From Halobacteriales archaeon (GTDB taxonomy: Archaea > Halobacteriota > Halobacteria > Halobacteriales > SKSH01), in assembly GCA_007118145.1 (NCBI GenBank), contig SKSD01000082.1, positions 1-39,093 of the forward strand: a DNA stretch of 39,093 nucleotides. Reading direction: 5' to 3'. This document shows positions 12,341 to 18,369 of this stretch, one piece after another. A program made the translations under genes and the position numbers. Position 1 is the stretch's first letter. Every line of letters begins with the position of its first letter. The notes under the pieces are model-generated. The model was given only the letters and a program-made list of their open reading frames with translations. It was not told the origin of the DNA and searched no databases.

Positions 12341-12784
12341 ACTTTCCGTGATACGAATCTCTTTATTACGAGCGATGCCGGCGTAGATACCAGCTAGCAT
12401 GCCGATGACCAGGACGAGTGTCGCACCGAGCCACGTGCCCATATCCTCACCCCAGAGGACATCGGGATCGACCAGCCCGGCCTCGATGCCGATAAGCACA
12501 CCAGCTGTCGCGACGAGACCACTGGACACGATCACCAACGCGAAATCGATGAGTCGATCCTGGAGTGGTCGGGCGAGGTACGCATCGGTGTCGATACCTC
12601 CTGGTGAGGTCTGTACGTAGACGTGCCAAGAGAATAGCACAACGGCCAACCCGGCGGCAGAGATACTGAGACCATAGGCAGCCGGTACAGCGAGGGCATC
12701 GGTGAGATTCGCCGAGATGACCGTCATGGCGAATAGTGCTACGATCGAGATGATGATGAACCGCCGCCAGTCCCGTGTGGCCAT
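12323..12784 (-). CDS. Small integral membrane protein, unknown function
   Basis: A 153-residue protein with four predicted membrane helices, at about residues 9-27, 33-53, 76-101 and 115-137. The cytoplasmic tail is charged and ends in ESDDRGE. Between helices 2 and 3 lies a loop with SPGGIDTDAYLARPLQDRL. I do not recognise the family. The ATG at 12784 faces the metal ATPase gene divergently across about 90 bases. The stop codon TAA (12323-12325) falls inside the conserved box of the RNase P RNA on the other strand, so the genes overlap tail to tail by 18 bases. A role in metal handling is possible from location only. Confidence 0.75.
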   Translation of the reverse strand: MATRDWRRFIIISIVALFAMTVISANLTDALAVPAAYGLSISAAGLAVVLFSWHVYVQTSPGGIDTDAYLARPLQDRLIDFALVIVSSGLVATAGVLIGIEAGLVDPDVLWGEDMGTWLGATLVLVIGMLAGIYAGIARNKEIRITESDDRGE

Positions 12785-12876
12785 GGGGTAGGCGTCTACG
12801 GGATTTGAGAAAAAGCTGGCGTCACGGTAGAGGGTTTTTCATCGCCGGAGGCGTGTATGTGACAACGAGGTGTGGT

Positions 12877-15111
12877 GTGACCGAATCGATTCGACTGTCC
12901 GTCCCGGAGATGGACTGTCCCACGTGTGCCGGCAAGGTAGATCGCGCACTTGAGCGTGTTCCAGGTGTCATCGAAGCACAGCTTCGGCCAACGACGGGTG
13001 GCGTGGACGTGACCTATGATCCACAGGTGATCGACCTCGACGGGATCATCAACGCGATTGAACGAGCAGGCTATCCGGTGGCATGGGCCGGCAAGGGTGC
13101 ACCACAGCGTGTCATGCGCCCACCAGTTTGGCGAACCAGACGAGCCGGTCTGACCGGTCTCGGTGGTCTACTCGCATTGCTCGGAGCCGTCTTGCAACTG
13201 TTCGTGATCGATCTCAACGTCGAACTCTGGGCAGCACTGTGGTGGTCACTGACGACGGCACAACTCGCCTACCTGCTCGCAACGATCATCGCCGGCCTGC
13301 CGATCTTGCGCGATGGCTTCTATTCACTTCGACAGGTCAACCTCGATATCGATCTCCTGATGAGCATCGCCATCATCGGCGCTGTCGGCGCATCCCTGCC
13401 GTTTGAGGCAGCGATGTTAGCAGTGTTATACAGTATCGCAGAATTGCTCGAACGCTATGCGATGGACAATGCTCGTGCGTCACTTCACGAACTCATGGAA
13501 CTCTCACCGGAGACAGCCATGTTGCTCGGACCCGCAGGTGAGGAGACCGTCTCTGTTGAGAGCCTCGGTGTCGGAGACCATGTCGGCGTCCGCCCAGGTG
13601 AGCGCATCCCGGTCGATGGAACGGTTATCGATGGTACCTCGGCTGTCGACCAGGCACCGATCACCGGGGAGAGCGTCCCGGTGGATGTCGAATCCGGTGA
13701 TGAGGTCTTCGCAGGGACGATCAATGAGACAGGTTACCTCGAGGTGGTGGTCGACCGGGTGGCTGCGGACTCGACCATCGCACGTATCGTCGAACTCGTC
13801 GAGGACGCAGAGACGAGTCAGACCTCCCATGAGCAGTTCGTCGACCGTTTTGCCGCGGTCTACACGCCGGTAGTCGTCGTCATGGCGGTCATCACAGCGA
13901 TCAGCCCACCACTTCTCATCGGTGCCGCGTGGGAGACCTGGTTCCTCCGGGGGCTCACCCTGCTGGTCATCGCCTGCCCATGTGCGTTCGTCATCTCCAC
14001 ACCGGTGAGCGTCGTCTCGGGGATCACGAGTGCGGCGCGAAATGGCGTCCTCATCAAGGGAGGTAGACATCTTGAGGCGATAGCTGAGGTCGATACCGTC
14101 GCGATCGATAAGACCGGCACCCTCACGACAGGTGAACTGAGCGTCGACGAGATTCGCCCACTTGGGACGGACACGGAGACACTCCTTCATCGCGCGAGCG
14201 CGCTCGAGGCACGAAGTGAGCATCCGATCGCATCAGCCGTTCTCACGTACGCGGCTGAACAGGGGATCGACCCACCGGTGCTAGAAGAGTTCGAGGCATT
14301 TGGAGGCAGAGGTGTCGCCGGTGAGATCGAGGGTGAGACATACTATGCCGGGAGTCCAGCCTTCTTCGAGGAGCTTGGCGCCGATCTGGGTGGACTGGAT
14401 GTTCATACCGATGGAGGACGTTGTATCAACGGGCAGGCGTGTGCCACCGATACCCACATCAACCTCGCCGCTGACATCATCCCCACGTACGAGGATGCAG
14501 GAAAGTCGGTCATACTCATCGGCCGGCCTTCGCGTATCGATGGGGTGATTGCGATCACTGATACCGTCAAACCGAACGCCGCCTTGGCAATCGAGACATT
14601 ACAGCGCCGAGGTATCTCGCGTATCGTCCTGTTGACCGGTGATAACCGTGGGGCAGCGGAGCACGTCGCAAACAAGGTCGGTATCGACGAGGTGCACGCT
14701 TCGTTACTTCCCGAAGAGAAGGTCGAGATGATCCATGACCTTGAGGCTCGCTACGGGCGGGTCGCGATGGTCGGTGACGGTATCAACGATGCCCCGGCCC
14801 TGGCGGCAGCCACGGTCGGGATCGCGATGGGAACCGGTGGGACAGATACAGCGATCGAGGCGGCCGATATCGCGCTGATCGGAGACGATCTGATGCACCT
14901 CCCATATCTCACCCGGCTCTCACACAAGGCAGATGGGATCATCCGACAGAACATCTTCTCGAGCCTCGCTGTCAAGGCGATCCTCGCCATCGGAGCACCG
15001 TTCGGTATCGTGACGGTCGTGCACGCGGTACTGATCGGTGATATGGGGATGAGCCTGGGGGTTACCGGTAACGCCATGCGCCTTTCGCGACTGCGCCCAT
15101 CAGCCAAGTGA
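12877..15111 (+). CDS. P1B-type heavy-metal transporting ATPase (Zn/Cd/Pb type)
   Basis: A 744-residue exporter that pumps soft divalent metals out of the cytoplasm using ATP. An N-terminal HMA domain carries MDCPTC (C14, C17). The transmembrane CPC motif is at 367-369 (ACPCAFVIS). The phosphorylated D411 is in DKTGTLT, an SEHPIAS motif follows, and the hinge is GDGINDAPAL (633 onward). The last helices contain VKAILAIG and IGDMGMSL; this K...D-x-G pairing is typical of the P1B-2 group (ZntA/CadA), so zinc, cadmium or lead is favoured over copper. The GTG at 12877 is chosen; GTG at 12859 and 12853 are alternatives. About 25 residues with two cysteines (GGRCINGQACATD) are inserted in the nucleotide-binding domain. 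It is followed by a DtxR regulator and a metal importer. Confidence 0.93.
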   Translation: MTESIRLSVPEMDCPTCAGKVDRALERVPGVIEAQLRPTTGGVDVTYDPQVIDLDGIINAIERAGYPVAWAGKGAPQRVMRPPVWRTRRAGLTGLGGLLALLGAVLQLFVIDLNVELWAALWWSLTTAQLAYLLATIIAGLPILRDGFYSLRQVNLDIDLLMSIAIIGAVGASLPFEAAMLAVLYSIAELLERYAMDNARASLHELMELSPETAMLLGPAGEETVSVESLGVGDHVGVRPGERIPVDGTVIDGTSAVDQAPITGESVPVDVESGDEVFAGTINETGYLEVVVDRVAADSTIARIVELVEDAETSQTSHEQFVDRFAAVYTPVVVVMAVITAISPPLLIGAAWETWFLRGLTLLVIACPCAFVISTPVSVVSGITSAARNGVLIKGGRHLEAIAEVDTVAIDKTGTLTTGELSVDEIRPLGTDTETLLHRASALEARSEHPIASAVLTYAAEQGIDPPVLEEFEAFGGRGVAGEIEGETYYAGSPAFFEELGADLGGLDVHTDGGRCINGQACATDTHINLAADIIPTYEDAGKSVILIGRPSRIDGVIAITDTVKPNAALAIETLQRRGISRIVLLTGDNRGAAEHVANKVGIDEVHASLLPEEKVEMIHDLEARYGRVAMVGDGINDAPALAAATVGIAMGTGGTDTAIEAADIALIGDDLMHLPYLTRLSHKADGIIRQNIFSSLAVKAILAIGAPFGIVTVVHAVLIGDMGMSLGVTGNAMRLSRLRPSAK

Positions 15112-15156: not shown

Positions 15157-15828
15157 ATGCTCAGCCCGGTTATGGAGGATTATCTGAAGGCCATCTATAA
15201 GCTACAGCTTGAGCATGACGGCCGGGTATCGACCTCTTCGATCGCAGAGGTGATGGATGTCACACCACCGACGGTCACCAGCATGCTGGAGAAGCTAGAG
15301 GCGCGAGAATTGATCGACCGAGAGAAGTACGCCGGTGTCCGCCTCACGCCCGAGGGGGAGCAAGTCGCCCTTGAGGTCATCCGTCATCATCGATTGCTCG
15401 AGACGTTCCTCACCGAGCACCTCGATTTCGATTGGTCTGATGTTCACGACGAGGCTGATCGCCTGGAACATCACATCAGTGAGGAACTCGAACGACGGGT
15501 GGCAAGCCGACTCGAAGATCCCACGGTCGATCCCCATGGTGCACCGATCCCGAGTGCAGATCTCAAACCACTCGAGATGCGTCCGGGGAAGACCCTCACC
15601 GCGTTCGACCCCGGCACCACCGTCGAGGTGCGACAGGTTTCTGATCATGATCGTGAGATTCTCGATTACCTTGCAGATCATGGTATTGTCCCTGGTGAGC
15701 GACTCACCATCGTCGAGATCGCCCCGTTCGGCATGGTAACCGTCGAGACGACCGCTGGCGAGTCCGTTTCGCTGCCTGAGGACATCGCGGCCACCGTCAG
15801 GGCGAGTGAGTGCCAACTCACCAATTAG
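15157..15828 (+). CDS. DtxR-family metal-dependent transcriptional regulator
   Basis: A 223-residue regulator of the DtxR/MntR/SirR family, which represses metal uptake genes when Fe(II), Mn(II) or a similar metal is bound. The N-terminal winged helix contains VMDVTPPTVTSMLEKLEARELI. The dimerisation domain has the metal-binding type sequence HHRLLETFLTEHL and DRLEHHISEELE. The C-terminal third (about 145-223) is an SH3-like FeoA domain (VEVRQVSDHDREIL, GMVTVETTAGESVSLP). It is the full three-domain form. It lies 45 bases after the exporter gene and 48 bases before the importer binding protein. The inverted repeat at 15847-15860 is its likely operator. Confidence 0.93.
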   Translation: MLSPVMEDYLKAIYKLQLEHDGRVSTSSIAEVMDVTPPTVTSMLEKLEARELIDREKYAGVRLTPEGEQVALEVIRHHRLLETFLTEHLDFDWSDVHDEADRLEHHISEELERRVASRLEDPTVDPHGAPIPSADLKPLEMRPGKTLTAFDPGTTVEVRQVSDHDREILDYLADHGIVPGERLTIVEIAPFGMVTVETTAGESVSLPEDIAATVRASECQLTN

Positions 15829-15835
15829 ACCGATA

Positions 15836-15860
15836 CTATTTTATTTTTAGACGTATCTAA
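15836..15860 (+). promoter_or_regulatory. Importer promoter with DtxR-like operator
   Basis: The T/A-rich TATA-like segment (15836-15848) leads into the inverted repeat TTAGA-CGTA-TCTAA (15847-15860), 16 bases before the ATG of the binding protein at 15877. The half-sites resemble the TTAGG...CCTAA halves of IdeR/DtxR boxes. A bound regulator would cover the space between TATA and the transcription start and so repress the importer. Confidence 0.6.
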
Positions 15861-15876
15861 TCATTCATAGTAACCA

Positions 15877-16827
15877 ATGATACGTGATTTCGAGCCGTTG
15901 TCACTCTCGAGACGACAGGTGCTTGGCGCAGGATTGGGAGGCTCGGCTATGTTACTCGCTGGATGTATCGGTGATGATGACTCCGGTGGGGGTGGTGGCC
16001 CATCAGCCGTGGCAGGATCATTCTTCGTACTGTACGATTTCGCCAGGCAGGTGGCGGGGGATCGATTGATCGTCTCCGACCTTGTCCCCGTCGGATCGCA
16101 TGGTGATGACTACGAACCGAGCCCTGGGGTCGTCCTCGACGCAGCCGCATCCGATATCTTCCTCTATATCGGTGGGTTCCAGTCATGGGCAGATAACCTC
16201 GCCTCCACACTCGAAGATGACTATCCTGATATGGTAGTCCTTGATGCCGCCTCACGTATCGACTATATCGAGGGTCATGGAGACCGTCCGCTCGATCCAC
16301 ACTTCTGGTTGGATCCACAACGGTCGATCACGGCCATTGAGACCATCCGCGACGGGTTCATCGACGCCGATCCCGACGGGGCGACAACTTACGAGGATGG
16401 AGCCGAGGATTTGATCGACCGCATCGACCTACTCGATGCTGATCTCATCGATGTGTTCGATCGCAGAACCCGTGATATGATCGTCGTCGCGAGCCACAAC
16501 TCGTTCGGGTACTGGACGGAGCGATATGGCATCGAGATATATTCACCAATCGGGCTCTCACCAGACGCAGAACCCACCCCACAGGCACGGGCTGAGGTAT
16601 CCTCGATCGTTGAGGAGTATCACATCGAGTACCTGCTGTATGATATGTACGAATCGACCCGGTTGGCGGAGCAACTCGCCGACGAAACGGATACCGATCT
16701 CCTGCCACTCTCACCGATTGAAGCCACGACACAGGAACAGTACGATGATGGATGGGGATACGTGGAACATATGCAGGAGATAAATCTACCAAGCCTCTAC
16801 GAAGCGTTAGGGGTTAATGGTGAATGA
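15877..16827 (+). CDS. Metal ABC transporter substrate-binding lipoprotein (ZnuA/MntA-like)
   Basis: A 316-residue cluster A-I binding protein. The N-terminus has a twin-arginine signal (LSRRQVLGAG) and the lipobox LLAGC with the lipidated C30, followed by a Gly-rich linker, so it is a Tat-exported lipoprotein. Metal site motifs are DPHFWLDP (H142) and SHNSFGYW (H207); a histidine at the third position is typical of zinc proteins, whereas manganese proteins usually have glutamate. The first motif is unusual: families usually read DPH-x-YEP, while here HGDDYEP (75-81) puts D77 where the ligand histidine belongs. Zinc or manganese uptake is the likely role. It overlaps the ATPase gene by 11 bases. 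Confidence 0.92.
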   Translation: MIRDFEPLSLSRRQVLGAGLGGSAMLLAGCIGDDDSGGGGGPSAVAGSFFVLYDFARQVAGDRLIVSDLVPVGSHGDDYEPSPGVVLDAAASDIFLYIGGFQSWADNLASTLEDDYPDMVVLDAASRIDYIEGHGDRPLDPHFWLDPQRSITAIETIRDGFIDADPDGATTYEDGAEDLIDRIDLLDADLIDVFDRRTRDMIVVASHNSFGYWTERYGIEIYSPIGLSPDAEPTPQARAEVSSIVEEYHIEYLLYDMYESTRLAEQLADETDTDLLPLSPIEATTQEQYDDGWGYVEHMQEINLPSLYEALGVNGE

Positions 16828-17542
16828 CGTAATACTCTCCCTCGACGACGTCAGCTTCGGCTACGGTGATGAACCGGTCGTCGAGGAGATTACCTTCTCG
16901 GTCGAGCGTGGAACCTTCCTCGGTCTCGTCGGTCCGAACGGGTCTGGTAAGTCGACCGTGCTCAAACTCGCCCTCGGTCTCCTTACGCCCGAGGATGGTG
17001 AGATCAGCCTGTTCGGCGAGCACCCGTCCAGCGATGATGTTCGCAGCCGAGTTGGTTATGTTCCCCAACGAGGCTCAGAAATCGATCGGCGGATGCCGAT
17101 CACCGTCGAGGAGGTGGTCACTCTCGGTCGGGTCCCGACGGCCGGTCTTCGCCCTCTCCGACGGAACGACAGAGAACGCGTGAACCAGGCGCTCAGGCGT
17201 GTCGGAATCGAATCACTCAACGATCGTCGGATGGGTTCACTCTCGGGTGGACAGCGTCAACGTGCTCTCGTTGCACGTGCACTCGCTGCTGACGCAGAGC
17301 TACTCGTGCTGGATGAACCGACCGTCGGTATCGATGCCAATGCTCGCTCATCGCTTTATGACCTGCTCGATTCACTCCACCACGATGGGATGACGATCGT
17401 GTTGATCGATCATGACCTCGGGACACTCGTCGAGCATGTCGACATGATTGCACAATTGAATCGCCACCTGGAGTTCTTCGGGCCACGCGATGCGTTCCTC
17501 GAGGAGCTCTCGGTCGTCGGTCAGCTCGCAGGTGGATGGTGA
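16817..17542 (+). CDS. Metal ABC transporter ATP-binding protein (ZnuC/MntB-like)
   Basis: A 241-residue ATPase that drives metal uptake. Walker A is GPNGSGKST (39-47), the Q-loop region is YVPQRGSEID, the ABC signature is LSGGQRQR (142-149), Walker B is LLVLDEPT (162-169) and the switch histidine is in IDHDLG. YVPQR followed by ITVEEVV(TLGR) is typical of the metal importer ATPases. The ATG at 16817 overlaps the binding protein gene by 11 bases; a GTG at 16820 is equally possible. The 3' end overlaps the permease gene, so the three importer genes form one operon. Confidence 0.95.
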   Translation: MVNDVILSLDDVSFGYGDEPVVEEITFSVERGTFLGLVGPNGSGKSTVLKLALGLLTPEDGEISLFGEHPSSDDVRSRVGYVPQRGSEIDRRMPITVEEVVTLGRVPTAGLRPLRRNDRERVNQALRRVGIESLNDRRMGSLSGGQRQRALVARALAADAELLVLDEPTVGIDANARSSLYDLLDSLHHDGMTIVLIDHDLGTLVEHVDMIAQLNRHLEFFGPRDAFLEELSVVGQLAGGW

Positions 17543-18369
17543 TGCCACTCGACATGTTCTCCGAGATTGTTACCACCCCGTTCATGCAACGGGCGATCCT
17601 GGTCGGAATGTGTATCGGCGTGGTCGGCCCCTTAATTGGGTCGTTCCTCGTCCATCGAGAGATGGCACTCATCGGTGAGGCACTCGCCCACACCGCATTT
17701 GCGGGGGTGGCCATCGGTATCGTGGCCGGGACGCAGATGGACTGGGGTGGCTCACCGTTGTTCGTCGCGTTAGCCGTGGTCATCCTTGCTGCCCTCGGGT
17801 TGCAGTACCTGTCGACACATACGGATGCGTACGGTGATGTCCCGCTGGCCATCCTCTTGACGGGTGGGTTCGCACTGGGTATCGCCGTGATTACCTGGGG
17901 TGTCGCCTTCACCGCCCAGATCGGGCAGTATCTCTATGGATCGATCCTCGCTGTTTCATGGACCTCGGTGTATCTCATGTTCGCCTTATCGGTGGTGGTG
18001 ATCAGCATCGTTCTCGTCACGCACAAACAGCTTCTCATGATCACGTTCGACCGTGAGGTAGCCCGTGCCTCTGGCATCCGTGTTGCCGCCTATGATACGA
18101 TCTTGATCGTGATGACAGCGATCGTCGTTGTCGGGGCGATGCAGATGCTCGGTGCGATACTGGTCGCCGCCATGTTGGTCGTCCCTGTGGCAGCTGCGAT
18201 GTCGCTAACCGCAAGTTTCTACCGCAGCATCTGGTTATCGATCGGTGTGGGTGAGCTCATGGTATTGCTCGGCATCTTCCTCTCCTATGTGTTCGATATT
18301 GCAACAGGGGCGATGATCGTCCTCGTCGGGATCGGTCTGTACCTTGTCGCACTGGCGATTGGTCGGTGA
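17536..18369 (+). CDS. Metal ABC transporter permease (ABC-3/ZnuB family)
   Basis: A 277-residue membrane protein with about 8 hydrophobic helices, of the ABC-3 family that forms the channel of zinc, manganese and iron importers. Family features are MALIGEALAHTAFAGVAIG in the early region, FDREVARASGI before helix 6 and GAILVAAMLVVPVAAAM later. The start is ATG 17536 or ATG 17542, both overlapping the ATPase gene by up to 7 bases, so translation is coupled. It is the last gene of the metal block; a 160-base gap with no evident gene separates it from the convergent permease gene. Confidence 0.94.
   Translation: MVMPLDMFSEIVTTPFMQRAILVGMCIGVVGPLIGSFLVHREMALIGEALAHTAFAGVAIGIVAGTQMDWGGSPLFVALAVVILAALGLQYLSTHTDAYGDVPLAILLTGGFALGIAVITWGVAFTAQIGQYLYGSILAVSWTSVYLMFALSVVVISIVLVTHKQLLMITFDREVARASGIRVAAYDTILIVMTAIVVVGAMQMLGAILVAAMLVVPVAAAMSLTASFYRSIWLSIGVGELMVLLGIFLSYVFDIATGAMIVLVGIGLYLVALAIGR

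Follow-up and report, generated by a model that had tools for sequence, protein, structure and literature searches.

Genes and palindrome at the locus

The window, by which we mean the entire stretch of 39,093 nt analysed here, contains a metal transport locus encoded on the plus strand. A gene for a 223-residue metal-dependent repressor of the DtxR family, SirR/MntR type (15157..15828), is followed by the genes of an ABC importer, which encode a ZnuA-type lipoprotein that binds metal (15877..16827), the ATPase (16817..17542) and an ABC-3 family permease (17536..18369). The three importer proteins score above the corresponding Pfam cut-offs (ZnuA, 184.5 bits; ATPase, 113.5 bits; permease, 199.8 bits) and together make up a ZnuA/TroA-type importer. 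The repressor is composed of HTH, metal-binding/dimerisation and FeoA domains. Its Pfam matches are Fe_dep_repress (67.5 bits, cut-off 26), Fe_dep_repr_C (102.8 bits, cut-off 27) and FeoA, the SH3-like domain of the DtxR/IdeR branch (58.5 bits, cut-off 23). Among the NCBIfam models shown, none had an equivalog or exception cut-off that any of these four proteins reached. For the regulator, which stays under the cut-offs of the MntR, DtxR and IdeR equivalogs, the best score was 203 bits against the 350 bits of the thermophile-type MntR model. A heavy-metal P-type ATPase with an HMA domain (12775..15111, true start uncertain) lies 45 bp upstream of the regulator. From position 12775 onward, an exporter (the Cd/Zn-type ATPase), a sensor and an importer are thereby paired, with the exporter directly before the regulator on the same strand. 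The order of ATPase and then regulator also occurs in a relative from the same family.

The gap of 48 bp between the regulator and binding-protein genes includes the predicted operator, TTAGACGTATCTAA (15847..15860). It is a 14-bp palindrome, not assigned to either strand, with the geometry of a DtxR site for a single dimer. The palindrome begins 18 bases after the regulator stop codon and ends 16 bases 5' of the binding-protein ATG (15877). It is immediately preceded by the T/A-rich stretch TATTTTATTTTT, and the presumed TATA region (15836..15848, plus strand, placed by eye) overlaps its first bases. Sequence inspection thus bore out the first-pass annotation as to the location of the palindrome, its spacing to the ATG, the T/A-rich neighbour and the DtxR-family gene upstream.

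The half-sites had also been likened to those of the IdeR box, and this likeness holds in part. The IdeR/DtxR box (TTAGGTTAGSCTAACCTAA; single-dimer form TTAGGNNNNCCTAA) is likewise a 14-bp TTAG...CTAA element, its cores separated by six bases (PMC8464063, PMC10317159), and the TTAG-N6-CTAA geometry is present at 15847-15860. However, the IdeR-type G at base 5 and C at base 10 are replaced by A and T. IdeR double sites span 19 bp, and this full form could be ruled out in the window, as neither TTAG nor CTAA was found at 5-bp offsets around the box. The window site is therefore a single 14-bp site. According to PMC8464063, a single IdeR dimer needs no more than TTAGGNNNNCCTAA, the proposed minimal target.

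The exact palindrome is rare. It is the sole match to TTAG-N6-CTAA in the window, whereas shuffled windows contain 0.06 matches on average, with at least one match in 6 of 100. With up to two mismatches to TTAGA-N4-TCTAA allowed, there are 2 matches compared to 3.64 expected, so that only the exact site stands out and there is no excess of imperfect ones. The first-pass annotation had suggested a genome search for TTAGA-N4-TCTAA; the only exact copy in the organism's own assembly (88 contigs totalling 1.72 Mb; completeness 78.7%) turned out to be the importer site itself. The less specific TTAG-N6-CTAA occurs five times in this assembly, compared to 21 times for the reversed control pattern. 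A single site might still be a product of chance. It is the conservation in related promoters that identifies the palindrome as real.

Conservation of the box before importers and regulators

Of 391 genomes of the class searched for the binding protein, 310 gave a match. The best 30 places, together with two found via the regulator, constituted a first set of 32 binding-protein genes, including that of the window. A second set consisted of 40 further promoters picked by hand from the same binding-protein matches. Start codons in both sets were assigned by a script. Within 250 bp upstream of the gene, TTAG-N6-CTAA was present in 29 of the first 32 cases, while shuffled sequences had a mean of 0.06/32 and a maximum of 1/32 in 300 rounds. 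The spacing is specific, as every other spacer from 0 to 13 was found in at most two of these 32 promoters. The second set agreed (38/40). Altogether, 67 of the 72 upstream regions, window included, have the box, although the 72 promoters are related by descent and do not represent 72 independent events. The box was not found within 250 bp upstream in five cases (L103, L107, L117, L141 and L144). All of these except L141 form one supported group (99/93) in the binding-protein tree and may obey another regulator.

In 65 of the 72 promoters the box occupies one of two positions. It lies upstream of TATA in 56 (distal class) and between TATA and the start in nine (proximal class), the window being among the latter. 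Two boxes are off both usual positions (L145 at -191 and L154 at -100). In the consensus, the importer boxes begin with TTAG and end with CTAA; in between, A (78%) and C (69%) are separated by two free bases from G (75%) and T (78%). Base 5, which sets the window site apart from the IdeR box, is A in 51 of 65 importer boxes; the others have C (9), G (4) or T (1).

The same box accompanies the regulator family. Relatives of the regulator were found in 267 places, and the best 80 loci were analysed. Of these best 80, 46 have a box before the regulator, at most 80 bp away, 24 have one within 350 bp after it, 18 have boxes on both sides and 28 have none on either side. The remaining 489,133 bases of these loci contain no box. 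An ABC importer is present within the 3-kb flanks of just two of the best 80 loci. Viewed from the importers, a regulator homologue was seen beside 20 of 72 (flanks of about 1.2-3 kb), and 18 of these 20 regulators have a box of their own, either at -18 to -24 or at -71 to -73.

The two exceptions are the regulators of L102 and of the window. Autonomous metal-responsive repression had been predicted for the window. The comparative data fit the importer part of this prediction. There is, however, no exact box before the window regulator, although a degenerate one may exist, so autoregulation can be set aside. We infer that this regulator is probably expressed from the ATPase promoter or from its own promoter without control by the box.

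The box is also retained where the downstream gene is a different one. At a locus in another genome of the same family (L012), the regulator comes after the ATPase and is itself followed by TTAGATTACTCTAA and a different gene; the importer differs while the box stays. The product of that gene is 51% identical to the ZupT-like protein of L021. The L021 protein is encoded after the second box of its locus, and its matches to Pfam Zip and NCBIfam ZupT both stay under the cut-offs. The family relative (G001) has a second regulator copy on contig C127 (L013/L015), whose frame is broken into two pieces, with one internal stop.

A related system has been characterized in Halobacterium salinarum. Deletion of sirR is reported to raise zurA, zurM and ycdH mRNA in Mn (PMC1779511). 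This derepression contrasts with the positive correlation in the expression data of the same authors, which had predicted a positive role, and they note a relative that acts as both activator and repressor (PMC1779511). Table 1 of that paper lists the operon genes ycdH, zurA and zurM as VNG6265G, 6264G and 6262G. Based on gene order and replicon, we identify the pNRC200 operon in our set (L171; binding protein, ATPase, permease) as ycdH-zurA-zurM. Its importer is of the same class as that of the window, and its promoter has TTTGATACATCTAA at -70, with one core mismatch. TTAG follows 16 bp after the start of TTTGATACATCTAA and again exactly 22 bp after it, where it runs into TTAGATAGAAACTACTTTATAA. 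There are also differences. The Halobacterium box is upstream of TATA, whereas that of the window is between TATA and the start. The plasmid importer has no adjacent regulator in 5.8 kb, and SirR is a putative counterpart of the window regulator. Among the four plasmid importers, that of Halopiger has TTAGACAGGTCTAA at -65, and no such box was found in the stretches examined for Haloferax mediterranei and Halostagnicola.

The claim of a DtxR-family operator before the importer is thus upheld, as the same box precedes homologous importers, homologues of the regulator and, with one core mismatch, the Halobacterium operon. Very likely, 15847-15860 serves as operator for the importer genes (15877-18369) and would be bound by the adjacent SirR/MntR-type repressor, which would close the operon when metal is plentiful. 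With boxes before 67/72 importers and before 46 of the best 80 of 267 regulators, the window site very probably represents a further case of a kind of DtxR-family metal operator already known in haloarchaea, the SirR/MntR-type system. Leyn and Rodionov (2015) reportedly described archaeal DtxR-family regulons, haloarchaea included, with palindromic operators before metal transporters. MDR1 of Archaeoglobus fulgidus is said to control an operon with a metal ABC transporter (Bell et al., 1999). The site provides a concrete candidate for repressor binding at a metal importer, in a lineage represented by a partial assembly.

Metal and reader of the box

The regulator residues D8, K11, H78, E82, H97, E104 and H105 are kept in all of the best 80 of 267 homologues, and D101 is kept in 78 of these 80. 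In the alignment to IdeR, Asp8 takes the position of Met10 and Asp101 that of Cys102. As described in PMC10317159, sulfur ligands favour iron, and MntR has Asp or Asn in place of Met10 and Glu in place of Cys102, the Asp replacing Met10 being a mark of MntR. Asp8 fits a site of the Mn type, whereas position 102 is Asp and not Glu. A counterpart in these features is DR2539 of Deinococcus radiodurans, a dual Mn(II)/Fe(II) repressor that PMC3327659 distinguishes from MntR by Lys at position 11 and by His98. Lys11 and His97 of the window regulator correspond to these two residues, and both proteins have the SH3-like domain. DR2539 differs in that it governs mntH, an Nramp-type importer, in a bacterium; the likeness lies in the protein features.

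The binding protein is also unusual. Its first ligand position, residue 77, is His in 68 of the 72 proteins; the window and L098-L100 have Asp instead, so the window protein lacks the His expected at this position in a three-His ZnuA-type receptor. H142 and H207 are invariant (72/72), while D256 is present in 40/72. Asp77 together with H142, H207 and D256 gives two His and two Asp ligands, a mix known from Mn receptors such as PsaA. His75, two residues before Asp77, might join the ligand set. A change of metal preference through Asp77 is possible.

Taken together, these features suggest that the sensed metal is most likely Mn(II), possibly with Fe(II) as well. This assignment is provisional, since most of the models closest to the importer describe zinc systems and the upstream ATPase is of the Cd/Zn type. 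That zinc and not manganese is sensed and imported is unlikely, yet deserves serious consideration; the box would be a metal operator all the same. Zinc would agree with the nearest NCBIfam models of the importer (AztA/B/C, AdcA), the Pfam ZnuA match of the binding protein, the Cd/Zn-type ATPase before the regulator (TIGR01512, 501 bits), a 65% identical heavy-metal ATPase in the family relative and the naming of Haloferax homologues as zinc transporters in PMC8155600. It agrees less well with the Mn/Fe-type ligand positions of the regulator, with the two His and two Asp of the window binding protein (even if D256 occurs in only 40/72) and with the sirR deletion effect in Halobacterium, which was observed with Mn (PMC1779511).

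The genome also contains a second type of site, TTAGG-N4-CCTAA, in three copies (L127, L128 and L129, each at 1501-1514; contigs C75 and C77). One copy directly precedes the more likely start codon of an SBP_bac_6 binding-protein gene in a second ABC operon, and another separates this gene from the next, whose membrane protein product resembles its permease. The third lies beyond a ferritin-like gene, 210 bp from the 3' end, and not before it. L130 is the fifth TTAG-N6-CTAA site of the genome. The SBP_bac_6 protein matches general families only, in addition to thiamine- and phosphonate-type models below cut-off, and for this reason we do not take the TTAGG sites as proof of an iron regulon. 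A second DtxR-family gene of the genome has no FeoA match, and there are two further sub-threshold matches to the family. The TTAGG-N4-CCTAA sites are probably operators of another DtxR-family regulator. Two operator codes, TTAGA-N4-TCTAA and TTAGG-N4-CCTAA, therefore seem to coexist and can be contrasted inside one archaeal genome, and their pairing with particular proteins is our inference.

These additional proteins raise the question of whether one of them, and not the neighbouring regulator, reads the importer box. In 52 of 72 importer loci, moreover, no regulator homologue was seen in the flank examined, so the binder there acts from elsewhere. We nevertheless consider such a reader improbable for the window. 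The box precedes homologues of the neighbouring regulator itself (46 of the best 80 of 267 loci), including 18 of the 20 that adjoin an importer, and the second protein could read the TTAGG-type sites, whose different base 5 gives them a code of their own.

It is hardly credible that the regulator transcript ends in a terminator hairpin formed by the palindrome, or that the inverted repeat arose by chance. In favour of these readings are the T-rich stretch after the regulator stop, a surrounding 101 nt that fold better than shuffles (z -2.2, 8/200 shuffles as good) and the 6/100 shuffled windows with a match. A terminator is rejected on the predicted fold, in which the palindrome pairs with the preceding sequence and not with itself, and on the lack of any terminator-like site found. 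Chance is rejected on the conservation of the box, which is retained both upstream and downstream of TATA and in front of different genes.

Position of the box and a possible 22-bp register

If the adjacent SirR/MntR-type protein is the reader, its metal-loaded dimer would bind 15847-15860. The Haloferax znuA1 transcript is reported to start 4 nt before the ATG (PMC8155600). If the window start is similar, the box would lie between the presumed TATA and a start near the ATG, where a bound repressor would block the transcription machinery. With plentiful metal the operon would be shut; as metal falls, the apo-repressor would be released and the importer made. Since most homologues have the box upstream of TATA, simple blocking between TATA and the start cannot be the general mechanism. 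With a conserved operator at two places relative to TATA, it would be possible to test directly how an archaeal core promoter is controlled by a repressor of bacterial type.

Proximal boxes occur at three places on the binding-protein tree (72 sequences). One is the group of four that includes the window (support 88/87), another is a four-member group with the Halococcaceae sequences (100/96), and the third is L162, which belongs to the other half of the tree. The position label requires three changes on the tree, compared to a mean of 8.7 after shuffling. The position of the box is therefore inherited, without a single origin on this tree.

A second, weaker copy of the left half had been noted at 15825-15838 (TTAGACCGATACTA). 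It does overlap the TAG stop of the regulator. As a full 14-bp box it is rejected, since three of the four right-half core bases differ. What remains is TTAGA at 15825..15829 (plus strand), which is probably a half-site; it lies exactly 22 bp upstream of the box and just before the presumed BRE.

The same distance recurs in related promoters. Filtering to a maximum promoter identity of 70% left 44 of the 56 distal promoters and all nine proximal ones. In the distal class, the box matrix has its best secondary match exactly 22 bp downstream of the box; TTAG is found there in 16 of 44 promoters, compared to 6/44 at 44 bp, 2/44 at 5 bp and fewer at the remaining offsets. In the proximal class, the best secondary match is exactly 22 bp upstream, with TTAG in 3/9 (the window, L098 and L102) and, at -41, in 2/9. 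Judged by eye, the secondary site falls just before BRE/TATA in both classes. An exact TTAG at 22 bp is absent from 28/44 distal and 6/9 proximal promoters. The window sequence TTAGACCGATACTATTTTATT is similar to TTAGACCAATAGTATTAAATA in L147 and to TTAGATAGAAACTACTTTATA in Halobacterium.

The half-site is not an ordinary extension of the BRE, as TTAG is found 22 bp before the box in only 2 of 46 regulator promoters and in none of the 24 promoters after regulators, two of which (L019 and L020) are importer promoters. It may still be an element peculiar to importer promoters.

We read the secondary sites as marking a two-turn register around TATA. A tentative and somewhat doubtful generalization would be that haloarchaeal importer promoters carry DtxR-type sites in a 22-bp register with slots near -67, -45 and -23. 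The full palindrome would occupy different slots in different lineages, either upstream of the BRE or, as in the window, between TATA and the start; the middle slot would be kept as a TTAGA half-site just before the BRE, and dimers would bracket TATA. In the window, the last two slots are at about -52 and -30 from the start codon. The half-site at 15825, two helical turns upstream of the box and on the far side of TATA, would probably help a second dimer to bind, and dimers on one face of the DNA could repress cooperatively. If the register exists, the main operator could shift between slots with control retained. No 22-bp array of sites was found in the literature searched, which did not cover Leyn and Rodionov 2015 and Martinez-Pastor 2017; the two-slot register may be new.

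A layout akin to the 22-bp pattern is seen after regulators. In 11 of the 24 promoters of this type (L021, L022, L023, L027, L028, L041, L047, L048, L052, L061 and L066), a 15-bp palindrome, TTAG-N7-CTAA, is located 41-45 bp before the 14-bp box.
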